DNA from: Ferrimonas futtsuensis DSM 18154
GTDB taxonomy: Bacteria; Pseudomonadota; Gammaproteobacteria; Enterobacterales; Shewanellaceae
Length of the DNA stretch: 64,000 bases
Direction: 5' to 3'
NCBI RefSeq assembly: GCF_000422645.1
Contig: NZ_AUGL01000002.1
Location: 186,001-250,000 of the forward strand
The position numbers and the translations under genes are program-made. The notes under the pieces were generated by a model. That model had not been told where the DNA came from. It saw only the letters and a list, made by a program, of their open reading frames with translations, and searched no databases. Positions 36,895 to 40,715 of this stretch are shown here, in pieces (within the stretch, counting starts at the first letter, position 1; every line of letters begins with the position of its first letter).

Positions 36895-37794
36895 CTAAAG
36901 CATCCTAGTGGCTTCTGTCTTAAGGAGCTCGATGAAGGCACTCACTTTTGGCGGGGTGGGTCCTCCCTTGTGATAGATGGCGTTCAGCTCACGGATGTCG
37001 TACACGGTGTCCTCTTTGAGCACTTCCACCAGTTTGCCGGTACTGCGATCGGCCTTGGTCATAAAGTCGGTCAGGCAGGCGATACCGGCGCCCTCCAGAG
37101 TCAGTTTCCTGAGCACCTCCCCACTGGATGCGATGATGCTTGGGATGATCTTCAGCTTGTTGCCATCTTTATCCAATACCGGCCAGGTATTGAGGATGGT
37201 AGGACCATCAAGCCCCAGGAGTACGTGATTGTTCAGATCCTCGATGCTCTTGGGGAAGCCGTGCTCCTTAAGGTATTTGGGACTTGCCTGCAAACGGCGT
37301 TTGCTGATGCCAATAGGCATCACGTTGTGCTTGGAATCGTTCACTGCACCCACCCGGATGGCCAGGTCTGATCTCTTTTCGATGATGTCGACGATCTCTT
37401 CATCGTTTTGCAGATGGATCTTTACTCTGGGGTAGAGTTTGGAGTAGCACTTCACTATGGGGCTCACCAGGTGGACCAGAACCGGAGAGGCACCATTGAT
37501 TCTCAGGGTACCGCTCGGCTCGTTCCCTGCGAAGCGAAATTCGTCTTGAATGTTGTCGATGGCGGAGTTGATGGTTTTGGCGTGCTCGATGAGTTGCACC
37601 CCTTCCTGGGTGAACTCCAGCTTCCGGGTGTTTCTCAGAATGAGGCTGGTATCCAGCTTCGATTCCAACCGGGTCAGGCTTCGGCTAATGGTTGACGGCA
37701 TCACCCCGAGTTCCTCGGAAGCCCGGCTGATGGAGCCGCTCTCATAAACGGCTACCAAGCATTTCAGCTCATCCAGTGTGATGCTTTCGCGCAT
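36895..37794 (-). CDS. LysR-family regulator adjoining the c3/OYE/porin genes
   Basis: 299-residue LTTR. The helix-turn-helix is at about 7-65 (LDELKCLVAVYESGSISRASEELGVMPSTISRSLTRLESKLDTSLILRN), followed by the effector domain. Start at ATG 37794, preceded by AAGGAGAC; longer readings into the preceding porin terminator lack a ribosome site. It is on the same strand as, and 83 bases downstream of, the porin gene, separated by a terminator, so it is transcribed separately. As the nearest regulator it is the natural candidate to sense the substrate of the neighbouring reductase; this is inference. Confidence 0.9.
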   Translation of the reverse strand: MRESITLDELKCLVAVYESGSISRASEELGVMPSTISRSLTRLESKLDTSLILRNTRKLEFTQEGVQLIEHAKTINSAIDNIQDEFRFAGNEPSGTLRINGASPVLVHLVSPIVKCYSKLYPRVKIHLQNDEEIVDIIEKRSDLAIRVGAVNDSKHNVMPIGISKRRLQASPKYLKEHGFPKSIEDLNNHVLLGLDGPTILNTWPVLDKDGNKLKIIPSIIASSGEVLRKLTLEGAGIACLTDFMTKADRSTGKLVEVLKEDTVYDIRELNAIYHKGGPTPPKVSAFIELLKTEATRML

Positions 37795-37840
37795 TATCGT
37801 CTCCTTGGATCGGTGCTGGTTGACATTTATATCAGTATCG

Positions 37841-37873
37841 AAAAAAACAGGCCAACCTCGGGGCTGGCCTGTT
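37841..37873 (-). terminator. Intrinsic terminator of the c3-OYE-porin operon
   Basis: Stem AACAGGCCA (37846-37854) / TGGCCTGTT (37865-37873) with a 10-base loop, followed on the minus strand by a seven-base T run (A run at 37841-37847). It begins 5 bases past the porin stop codon and closes the leftward three-gene unit. Confidence 0.85.
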
Positions 37874-37877
37874 CGCA

Positions 37878-38978
37878 TTAGAAGTAGTATCCCAGATTGA
37901 TGTTGATTCGCTTGTCCCACTTGTCAAACTGGTCTTCCAGGCCAACGTGGTTGCTGCGCGAGGACCACAACATGTTTTTGCCTACGATAAAGTCAAACCA
38001 GGCAAACACCGGTCCTTTGCCAACGCTGATGCCGGTAACATTCTGATAGCTCTTGTCGAAGTCGTCAGACTCTGGGCACAGCACGTTGAAATCATTGTAG
38101 ACGGTTAACGCTCCCCATCCCATGTCGACCTTACGGGCCAGGTTAAAGGTGAAGGCACTGGCTTCGGAAGTGATCTCATAGGTGGCGCCGACCACACTCA
38201 GGGCGACCTTGTTCTGATAGTCGGAGGCGACATCGAAATCGTACTTCAGGTACTGGGCCTGAACCTTCCAGTTGTCGACGGAGCCCTCGTAGTGAACGGC
38301 ATAGGCATAGCGATCTTCCTTGCTGCCGTTGGCGGCGTCATACATCTGTCCATATTCAAGAGAGGCGCCAATGGTGAAGTCAATGCCGAATAGCTCGGTG
38401 AAAATGGAGTGACGTAGGTTGAACTGGTTGGTCTCTTCGTAGTTGTATTCGGTACCGTTCACCACCCCTTGAAAGATATCTGCCGCGAAGCGTTTGGTGC
38501 TGGTGGCGCCATTTTCGGCCCCTTTGAAAAAGGCCACGTCGGTCTGATAACCGTCGCCACGATACTCCAGGGAGACGCCGGTATCGTAATCGTCTTCGAA
38601 ACCGACATAGTATTGCAAACTCAGCCAGAAGCTGTTGGAAATATAACCGATATTGCCAAAGGGTACTTTAGCCACGCCCGCCTTTAAAGTGGTGTTGTCA
38701 TCCAGTTTGTAGTAGGCATAGCCATGTTTTATTGCATCAAAGTCATCACGAAAGCGATATTCCATTGACAAGCCAATGTCGTCGCGTTCGCCATTGAAGG
38801 AGAGGGCTGCGACTTCGAATTTGAAGTCACCCAGTTTGTCTTCTGAGGCTTCATTGTAATCGATGTAGGAGTAATTAACTCGGGTCATGCCACCGAATTC
38901 ATATTCGTTGGCTGCAAAAGCGTTAGTGTTCAACAATGTTGAGGCAATAATGATTGCCAGGGTGTTATATTTTTTCAT
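37878..38978 (-). CDS. Outer-membrane porin-like beta-barrel protein
   Basis: 366 residues with a signal peptide (about 1-22, ending AFA-A) and a mature chain made of alternating short amphipathic strands rich in Tyr, Gly and Asp (YEFGGMTRVNYSYIDY, MEYRFRDDFD, GVAKVPFGNIGY), ending in the C-terminal aromatic signature INLGYYF expected of beta-barrel proteins. GVAKVPFG resembles the phosphate-selective/OprP-type porin family. It is probably the entry route for the substrate of the periplasmic reductase encoded just upstream (72-base gap with a hairpin). A/T-richer than most of the window. Confidence 0.82.
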   Translation of the reverse strand: MKKYNTLAIIIASTLLNTNAFAANEYEFGGMTRVNYSYIDYNEASEDKLGDFKFEVAALSFNGERDDIGLSMEYRFRDDFDAIKHGYAYYKLDDNTTLKAGVAKVPFGNIGYISNSFWLSLQYYVGFEDDYDTGVSLEYRGDGYQTDVAFFKGAENGATSTKRFAADIFQGVVNGTEYNYEETNQFNLRHSIFTELFGIDFTIGASLEYGQMYDAANGSKEDRYAYAVHYEGSVDNWKVQAQYLKYDFDVASDYQNKVALSVVGATYEITSEASAFTFNLARKVDMGWGALTVYNDFNVLCPESDDFDKSYQNVTGISVGKGPVFAWFDFIVGKNMLWSSRSNHVGLEDQFDKWDKRININLGYYF

Positions 38979-39001: not shown

Positions 39002-39026
39002 TGCCGCACTTAAGGAAAGTGCGGCA
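39002..39026 (-). other. Hairpin between the OYE-like gene and the porin gene
   Basis: Perfect 10-bp arms TGCCGCACTT (39002-39011) / AAGTGCGGCA (39017-39026), loop AAGGA, with no T run. Its place inside the operon suggests an RNA processing or stability element that would allow unequal expression of the reductase and the porin. Confidence 0.6.
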
Positions 39027-39050: not shown

Positions 39051-40280
39051 TTAATGCCCTGGAGTGATATAAGCTCGAGAAGCATTGAGGATGCACTGGG
39101 ATTTCTGGGTGCCGTAGTTAGCGATGCACCAGTTGCAAGCCAGGCAGCGGGGTCTGTGGGAGGGATCCTGTTTCCACTTGTTTGCCAGATCTGGCTCAGA
39201 AAGCAGGGTGCGCCCGAAACCAAACGCTTGGATATTCTTGGTGTTGGCGAGAATCTCTTCCATCAACTTGGGCGTGCGGTTGCCTCCGGTGACGATCAGC
39301 GGCACATCAACATTGTCGCTGATGAATTTGGCGTCATCGGCAAAGTAAGACTGATCTTTCTCGTTCTGAATATCCGGGTGGAACTCACCCATGCCGCGCA
39401 CCTTATTCCCGCCGCTGATGTCCAGTGCGGTGATGCCTCGCTCGGCCAGCCCTTTGGCCACAAACAGGTTTTCCTCCTGGGTGTTGCCACCGGCGAGGCT
39501 GCCCAGGTAGTCCCGTCCATGTACCTTGGCAATGATGGGGAACTCAGGCCCCACAGCCGCACGCACCGCCTCGACGATTTCAAAGGCGAAGCGGGCTCGG
39601 TTCTCGATGGGGCCGCCGTACTCATCTTTGCGGTCGTTGTAGTAGGGGAACAGGAACTGGCTCACCAGGTAATTGTGGGCAAAGTGCAGTTCGATGGCGT
39701 CAAAGCCCGATTTCTGCGCTCTGACCGCAGCGTTGGCAAAGGCGTCAACCGCGAAGTTGATGTCCTCCTTGGTCATCACCTGGTTAGGGATGGTGCCGTA
39801 GATGGGGTGGGGGACCTTAGAGGCACCGTACACCTTGCGGCGGTCGGTCCGGTAGTTACTTTGAGGGCCGACCATCGCCAATTGAACGGCGATCTTGGAG
39901 CCATGATCATGGGCGTTTTGGACGACCTTCTTATACATCTCGATTTGGGAGTCGTCATACAACCCGGTACCGCCGTTACCGTACTGGTCTTCGGGCATGA
40001 TGTAGGTCAGGCCGGTGATAATCAGGCTTACGCCGCCTTCGGCCAATTCCCGGTGAACCCGCATCAGATCCTCTGTCGGGTCGCCATCTACTGTTGCCCG
40101 GTATTGAGAGGCGGCTGAACGAATGATTCGGTTTTTCAGCGTCAATGTGCCAAGCTTGGTCTCTTCAAACAGGCTTCGGTGGGTATTGACGCTGGCATTG
40201 GCGTTCAAAGAAAGAGTGGCCGGGCCACTCGCCGCTGCCACACCCATGAATTTCATCATCGTGCGTCGACTAATAGACAT
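39051..40280 (-). CDS. Tat-exported old-yellow-enzyme homologue with C-terminal Cys cluster
   Basis: 409 residues. A twin-arginine signal (MSISRRTMMKF, then a hydrophobic and Ala-rich run to about residue 30, ANA-S) precedes an FMN-binding OYE barrel: TLKNRIIRSAA, QLAMVGPQS, IELHFAHNYLVSQFL with the substrate-binding pair His199/His202, NDRKDEYGGPIENRARF, and the phosphate loop FGFGRTLL. The C-terminus has CLACNWCIANYGTQKSQC (Cys379, 382, 385, 396), similar to the 4Fe-4S site of dienoyl-CoA reductases but with CX2CX2CX10C spacing. No flavodoxin or NAD(P)H domain follows. Export and the cytochrome gene 18 bases upstream suggest cytochrome-fed reduction of an activated C=C bond; the substrate is unknown. 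Confidence 0.9.
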   Translation of the reverse strand: MSISRRTMMKFMGVAAASGPATLSLNANASVNTHRSLFEETKLGTLTLKNRIIRSAASQYRATVDGDPTEDLMRVHRELAEGGVSLIITGLTYIMPEDQYGNGGTGLYDDSQIEMYKKVVQNAHDHGSKIAVQLAMVGPQSNYRTDRRKVYGASKVPHPIYGTIPNQVMTKEDINFAVDAFANAAVRAQKSGFDAIELHFAHNYLVSQFLFPYYNDRKDEYGGPIENRARFAFEIVEAVRAAVGPEFPIIAKVHGRDYLGSLAGGNTQEENLFVAKGLAERGITALDISGGNKVRGMGEFHPDIQNEKDQSYFADDAKFISDNVDVPLIVTGGNRTPKLMEEILANTKNIQAFGFGRTLLSEPDLANKWKQDPSHRPRCLACNWCIANYGTQKSQCILNASRAYITPGH

Positions 40281-40298: not shown

Positions 40299-40715
40299 TT
40301 ATTTGTGACAGCTGGAGTTAGCGCAGCCGACCAGATCTTTATCTGACTTATTAAATTTTTTCTGGGCATCGCTGTGACAGGAAAGGCAGCGAATAGCAGC
40401 ATCATCCTTGACGGCTTTTTTGCCATGAATAATGGCGTAATAGGAGCCAGAGTCTTTTTTATCTGCTTTTTTTGTAGAGTGGCAACTGGAGCATTTGTAG
40501 GGGGTAAAGCTTTCTACGTCACTTTTCACCTTATGATGGCATGATGCGCACTCGACGTTTTTATGATTTTGGTGATCGAAAGCGACGTGTCGGGACAGTT
40601 GATGCATGGGAAGAATAACTTCCGGACTTTCTTTAACTATAAATTCTCCCATGGCACTGACCCCGACGGAAGCCAAAGAAAGAACCAATCCAATTATTGA
40701 TACTTTAATTTTCAT
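40299..40715 (-). CDS. Class III (c3-type) tetraheme cytochrome c
   Basis: 138-residue periplasmic cytochrome. Signal peptide about 1-21 (VSA-M). Four haem-binding motifs: CASCH, CSSCH, CLSCH and a terminal CANSSCH, which has four residues between the cysteines as in cytochrome c3. The segment FDHQNHKNVECASCHH is the hallmark F-x-H-x-x-H-x5-C-x-x-C-H-H block that supplies distal His ligands in class III cytochromes. It is the first gene of the unit; the OYE-like gene follows after 18 bases, so it is the likely electron donor. Visibly A/T-rich (many AAA, ATT, TTT codons) compared with the surrounding genes. Confidence 0.92.
   Translation of the reverse strand: MKIKVSIIGLVLSLASVGVSAMGEFIVKESPEVILPMHQLSRHVAFDHQNHKNVECASCHHKVKSDVESFTPYKCSSCHSTKKADKKDSGSYYAIIHGKKAVKDDAAIRCLSCHSDAQKKFNKSDKDLVGCANSSCHK

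Follow-up and report, generated by a model that had tools for sequence, protein, structure and literature searches.

An OYE-family flavoenzyme with a Tat-type signal and a four-cysteine tail, encoded beside a c3-type tetrahaem cytochrome in Ferrimonas and Shewanella, as a plausible respiratory reductase

A Tat-type signal, an OYE-family enzyme of the Fe-S type and a dedicated c3-type cytochrome form a rare module in the stretch of DNA analysed here (64,000 nucleotides from Ferrimonas futtsuensis DSM 18154, hereafter the window), and this module is plausibly a new respiratory reductase. The genes, a Tat-type signal that is marginal by score, the four invariant cysteines, the haem motifs and the gene order are established for this gene pair. 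The four-cysteine site by itself is ordinary, and the novelty lies in the predicted export of an OYE and its proposed wiring to a cytochrome. Enzymes of the OYE kind are usually driven by NADPH, and among the papers listed in searches of the open-licence PMC literature there was none on a periplasmic or cytochrome-linked OYE. The features of the locus are as follows.

36895..37797, minus strand: LysR-family regulator (PF03466, PF00126; in 7/7 loci)
37845..37874, minus strand: terminator-like hairpin between the porin and LysR genes (13 pairs, T tail)
37878..38978, minus strand: outer-membrane porin-like protein, 366 aa (no Pfam match at 0.001; in 6/7 loci)
39051..40280, minus strand: OYE-family flavoenzyme with Tat-type signal and four-Cys C-terminus, 409 aa (PF00724, 215.2 bits; translation)
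39093..39146, minus strand: CX2CX2CX10C, residues 379-396, probable [4Fe-4S] ligands (sequence, conservation, solved relatives)
40191..40280, minus strand: Tat-type signal peptide SISRRTMMKFMG, residues 1-30 (TIGR01409, 16.7 bits; RR in 7/7)
40299..40715, minus strand: class III (c3-type) tetrahaem cytochrome c, 138 aa, probable redox partner (PF02085, 65.7 bits)

In the Pfam search, the PF00724 match of the OYE extends over residues 36-371 and its score is far above the gathering score of 27; no other family was found in this protein at 0.001. The chain ends 13 residues past the last cysteine of its tail and an NAD(P)H/FAD module is absent from it, so that the original prediction, made from the sequence alone, was right in stating that the flavodoxin/NADPH half is missing. 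The substrate-binding His pair and Tyr of OYEs take the form HxxHxY or HxxNxY, and the residues H199, H202 and Y204, which line up with the HxxHxY of YqjM and are invariant in alignment A1, are taken by us, from their role in YqjM, to be the ene-reductase residues. Assignment to the BilR, BaiCD, NamA, NemA or mycofactocin OYE families was rejected, as the scores lie well below every NCBIfam cut-off; for bilirubin reductase they are 172.2 bits against a cut-off of 425 (NF045592) and 167.4 against 750 (NF045599), and the HGDR motif of BilR is absent, the OYE reading HGRD from residue 254.

The predicted barrel is confirmed to be of the OYE type by the second of two AlphaFold models and by structure comparison. 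Model 1, based on 5 sequences, has a mean pLDDT of 57.3, with the Cys tail below 50; model 2 (376 residues, 14 sequences) has a mean pLDDT of 82.2 and a pTM of 0.87, with a good barrel and values below 50 at residues 381-409 and in a loop near 292-307. With regard to a convergence of the four cysteines near FMN, the tail is thus left at a pLDDT below 50 by both models. The best 50 structural matches listed for model 2 are all OYE-family proteins (Z 40.2-45.1), the first of them being NCR, an Fe-S OYE (Z 45.1, rmsd 2.3, 353 residues aligned), with plain OYEs following from Z 43.4 down, dienoyl-CoA reductase at 42.4 and trimethylamine dehydrogenase (TMADH) at 41.5. The tail region is reached in this comparison by the Fe-S OYEs (NCR, 1ps9, TMADH 1djq and histamine dehydrogenase), but a few plain OYEs (8e5h, GluER and 7qfx) reach it too, and hence the structure comparison is no test of the cluster.

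The tail encoded by positions 39051-39160 carries the motif CLACNWCIANYGTQKSQC, which reads C379-X2-C382-X2-C385-X10-C396, and these are the sole cysteines of the 409-aa protein; the translation agrees with the cysteine positions and the distance to the chain end that had been proposed for it. A stretch of 18 residues contained all four cysteines in 4 of 20000 shuffles of the protein, and the exact motif was obtained in none of them. The same four cysteines, and no others, are present in all seven OYE orthologs, which share 78-88% identity and in which the Cys codons alternate synonymously between TGC and TGT. Invariant columns in the seven make up 24 of 28 positions in residues 377-404, 233 of 336 in the barrel and 11 of 30 in the signal; on this comparative evidence the four-Cys tail is under selection.

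In an alignment with proteins of the dienoyl-CoA reductase (DCR) type, the first three cysteines coincide and the fourth lies within a few columns. The solved Fe-S members of the fold show two forms of this site. The first, CxxCNxxC with X11, is that of DCR and NCR; the description of the DCR site as CX2CX3CX11C, on which the original prediction relied, is borne out by 1ps9 (X2/X3/X11). The second, CxxCNxC, is found in TMADH (1djn, X2/X2/X12) and in histamine dehydrogenase (HADH; 3k30), whose tail CIGCNICVSGDLTMSPIRC is X2/X2/X11. The OYE tail fits the second form, with a last gap of 10 as against 12 and 11, and CX2CX2CX11C occurs in L060, a 635-aa relative encoded on an IMG/VR contig. For gut Fe-S flavoenzymes the motif is given, in the available portion of one review, as CX2CX3CX11-13C (PMC11574389). 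This pattern, that of the three-domain enzymes DCR, NCR and BaiCD, is absent from the window OYE, and there is no X3 gap in TMADH and HADH either. The claim that the spacing is unusual therefore does not hold, and the spacing was rejected as a mark of novelty; CX2CX2CX10C is a normal variant, as judged from these sequences, CxxCNxC being a known [4Fe-4S] form of the fold. It is probable that the four cysteines of the OYE hold a [4Fe-4S] cluster. Queries of the PDB with the 80-aa tail alone, or with the L060 fragment at 1e-50, returned nothing relevant.

The OYE seems to be exported to the periplasm. Tat exports folded proteins with their cofactors, and the twin-arginine motif (RR) is present in 7/7 OYE orthologs. 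By score, however, the predicted Tat-type export signal is marginal. Against TIGR01409, with a cut-off of 16.7, the window OYE scores 16.7, the F. sediminum protein 14.6 (below the cut-off) and that of L007 17.5 (above it), with no match for L010; against PF10518 (cut-off 22.7) the window OYE scores 19.4, three of four N-termini falling below the cut-off and the fourth giving no match. In a search of the whole genome with TIGR01409 at E<=0.001, the window OYE is not among the 10 matches.

The distribution of the exported OYE is narrow in the samples searched. Within the family, 7 of 152 genomes contain an ortholog at E<=1e-100; three belong to the genus of the window (its own genome, G030 and G400) and four to a second genus (G419, G465, G471 and G481). 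The order-level search (E<=1e-60) gave matches in 31 of 394 genomes, with orthologs in the own genome and G030 only; at the class level, profile A1 at E<=1e-80 matched 1 of 369 genomes, viz. the own genome, and at the phylum level there were matches in 7 of 398, the orthologs again being from the own genome and G030. The class and phylum samples are sparse, as the Shewanella orthologs gave no signal in them, and the scan of genome contigs (4 loci of 17 stretches) reaches close relatives only; due to this, pairs of a Tat-OYE and a cytochrome in other phyla are possible. Thirteen plasmid records were matched, none with at least 60% identity, and in viral contigs searched by protein or alignment no OYE relative was seen. 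Of the stretches found with two DNA patterns, all 7 from the first and 4 of the 40 from the second contained an OYE frame.

The nearest relatives outside of the Tat clade are 30 single-domain proteins with CX2CX2CX7C and 39-43% identity, a set that includes one 281-aa fragment and one protein of the own genome (L002). The same table further lists 5 Tat-clade rows and 10 that lack a four-Cys tail; 5 of the latter are cytochrome frames, as the query contained both window proteins. The twin-arginine pattern is absent from all 30. This X7 group, about 38-43% identical to the window OYE, is widespread, with members in the same order as the window and beyond it (L002, L009 (Clostridia), L011-L038, L107 and L108 (Fusobacteria)), and no Tat motif was seen in it; the plasmid-borne L107 and L108 show the X2/X2/X7 spacing as well. 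The X7 proteins carry the four cysteines at the same place as the window OYE, from which they differ in the shorter last gap, in the lack of a twin-arginine pattern and in their surroundings, as no open frame in the neighbourhoods of L002, L009, L107 and L108 (4-11 kb each) carries more than one CXXCH. Among the genes annotated beside L107 and L108 are one of the nitroreductase family and one resembling a quinone oxidoreductase. In a midpoint-rooted tree of 29 selected rows, in which some other branches are long, the 7 exported OYEs form one clade (100/100) that is the sister of 9 X7 relatives (99/96). Based on this sisterhood, the trimmed single-domain state probably predates the cytochrome partnership. 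The trimming is real, and it is not specific to the exported OYEs.

The cytochrome matches PF02085 well above the cut-off of 22.9. Its haem sites are at residues 56, 75, 110 and 131, three being CX2CH and the last CX4CH. The haem attachment residues and five further histidines (38, 48, 51, 61 and 97) are invariant in 7/7, and these five would suffice as the four distal haem ligands, a role presumed for them here. The cytochrome gene lies 18 bp upstream of the OYE gene in the window and the two genes adjoin, 17-20 bp apart, in all seven loci. No close paralog of the cytochrome is encoded in the own genome, where the only other matches are at E 0.001-0.002. It was part of the original prediction that a trimmed Fe-S OYE of this kind would be well suited to a haem donor. 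Of that prediction, the OYE fold, the likeness of the motif to the Fe-S sites of relatives, the missing flavodoxin/NADPH half and a tetrahaem cytochrome gene directly upstream in 7/7 loci are supported; the link between trimming and haem is not borne out, as the X7 relatives are equally single-domain and no multihaem frames occur in the four neighbourhoods.

The order cytochrome-OYE-LysR on one strand is kept in all seven loci, from Ferrimonas and Shewanella, and the porin gene is present in six; in the G030 locus (L054 9175-9342) it is missing between OYE and LysR. The porin ortholog of S. atlantica matches Porin_4 at 2e-4, below its cut-off, and a second porin near the F. sediminum locus (L055 14189-15394) has 32% identity to the operon porin. 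The ATG start of the LysR gene lies within a longer GTG frame reaching 37920. Terminator-like sites such as that between the porin and LysR genes number 9 in the region, against 5.7 expected. A 10-pair hairpin at 39002-39026, between the OYE and porin genes, has no T run on the genes' strand; a role in mRNA processing or in attenuation is possible. Three NapC/NirT-family genes of the own genome score above the cut-off and a fourth match lies below it; their products are possible quinol dehydrogenases.

In 4/4 Shewanella loci (L056 10349-12992, L057 4593-7128, L058 10524-13167 and L059 13430-15999), the third of which is presumably that of S. sediminis, genes for a glyoxalase, a NemA-like OYE and an EamA transporter run divergently from the cytochrome gene. 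At the F. sediminum locus the glyoxalase is the only one of these genes (L055 11512-11982), and the window and L054 are without them. Two OYE genes of S. sediminis, YP_001474442 and YP_001474445, have been tabulated (PMC2824531), and their spacing would fit the nemA gene and the Tat-OYE of L058.

Several known systems resemble this pair in part. TMADH and HADH, which share the CxxCNxC form with the window OYE, exchange single electrons with a separate protein, which for TMADH is ETF. They are longer chains (729 and 690 aa) with covalent FMN, attached in TMADH at Cys30, and they oxidise amines. Attachment of FMN as in TMADH was ruled out, since the window OYE has no cysteine outside 379-396, and its candidate partner is a c-type cytochrome. 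In DCR (1ps9) and NCR, as in the window OYE, the OYE barrel is followed by the four-Cys motif at the same place; both, however, continue into a C-terminal second half and lack the Tat-type signal and the cytochrome partner. The portion of the NCR study consulted here gives the distances of the [4Fe-4S] cluster as 6 A to FMN and 9 A to FAD, and has it feed FMN with single electrons (PMC6502838). Coupling of gut-bacterial Fe-S flavoenzymes to electron-transport chains has been proposed, with MFS, flavodoxin or ETF neighbours, in a survey of these enzymes whose main text contains neither 'cytochrome' nor 'periplasm' (PMC7371122). The short BilR is a single-domain OYE with the flavodoxin-like BilS encoded beside it, BilS being thought, in an excerpt of that work, to participate in electron transfer (PMC10769871); it shares with the window OYE a separate partner gene, which for BilR is flavodoxin-like. 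In Geobacter AM-1, according to an extract of its description, the periplasmic methacrylate reductase Mrd receives electrons from the tetrahaem cytochrome Mcc, both being encoded in one operon with signal peptides of different types, that of Mcc being Sec (PMC4427408). As far as this extract goes, Mrd/Mcc is, like the pair predicted here, a periplasmic flavoenzyme with a tetrahaem cytochrome in one operon, and for Mrd an alkene acceptor is known. The flavoprotein Mrd is, however, of the fumarate reductase type, whereas that of the window is an OYE barrel (PF00724), and assignment of the window pair to the Mrd/Mcc type was rejected, PF00724 being the only family found at 0.001.

For the gene pair we infer cofactors, location, electron route, direction, substrate and a link to energy conservation, as follows. 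The OYE would acquire FMN and a [4Fe-4S] cluster as it folds in the cytoplasm, before its export by Tat. A quinol dehydrogenase of the CymA/NapC type would probably reduce the c3-type tetrahaem cytochrome, which, being co-encoded, is the natural candidate for a separate electron-transfer partner of the OYE, and the cytochrome would pass electrons one at a time to the cluster of the C-terminal tail. In relatives this cluster sits between FMN and a second redox module; in the absence of that module its outer face would be free. The cluster would load FMN with two electrons, and FMN would reduce the activated C=C bond of a substrate, or a similar compound of the kind that OYEs accept; this substrate may enter via the linked porin and be sensed by LysR. 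Three points favour the direction from quinol to alkene: the ene-reductase residues, the lack of a TMADH-type cysteine and the parallel with Mrd/Mcc, so far as the extract cited describes it. We consider it moderately probable that the pair is a two-component, periplasmic, quinol-linked ene-reductase with the route cytochrome to [4Fe-4S] to FMN to activated alkene. That the OYE is a terminal respiratory reductase, in which the quinol pool, acting via a dedicated c3-type cytochrome docked at a [4Fe-4S] tail, replaces NAD(P)H in the extracytoplasmic respiration of a specific unsaturated organic compound by some Ferrimonas and Shewanella, is a more tentative proposal, to which we give nearly an even chance.

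The same cofactors and partner could also serve to clear electrophiles (enals, quinones, maleimide-like or nitro compounds) from the periplasm rather than to respire. OYEs and NemA act on electrophiles, and the divergent glyoxalase, nemA-like and eamA genes, complete in the four Shewanella loci and reduced to the glyoxalase in F. sediminum, hint at reactive electrophiles as the OYE substrate. However, the window and L054 lack these genes, and a dedicated cytochrome of low-potential type together with a porin better matches an electron acceptor; detoxification is accordingly considered unlikely. A flow of electrons in the opposite direction, with FMN oxidising a periplasmic substrate and the cluster sending electrons out to the cytochrome, is rather improbable. 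Among solved structures, those with CxxCNxC belong to dehydrogenases whose cluster carries electrons out in this manner, TMADH delivering them to ETF, and the window OYE has their spacing and TMADH among its structural matches; it has, however, no cysteine that could bind FMN as Cys30 does in TMADH, and it carries the HxxHxY of OYE type. That the four cysteines bind zinc or form disulfides, with the cytochrome reducing FMN directly or serving another enzyme, would agree with the unordered tail of the AlphaFold models and with a cluster that is itself deduced, but it is highly improbable, as CxxCNxC sits where solved relatives bind [4Fe-4S], Tat handles folded cofactor proteins and the cytochrome gene is adjacent in every locus.

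Extracytoplasmic C=C respiration is known for fumarate-reductase-like flavoproteins acting on fumarate, urocanate and methacrylate, as described in the portions available of two reports (PMC8238504, PMC4427408). If the respiratory reading of the exported OYE and its cytochrome is true, such respiration would have the OYE as its second catalytic scaffold, and periplasmic alkene respiration would have had an origin separate from that of the fumarate-reductase-type enzymes. It would further show how a cluster that works with a flavin module of the same chain can take on a new role as the docking point of a cytochrome, and a possible gain would be an ene-reductase driven by haem or an electrode, for which NADPH is not needed. 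In these Ferrimonas and Shewanella species, the exported OYE and its cytochrome could place the OYE kind of enzyme in a respiratory chain.
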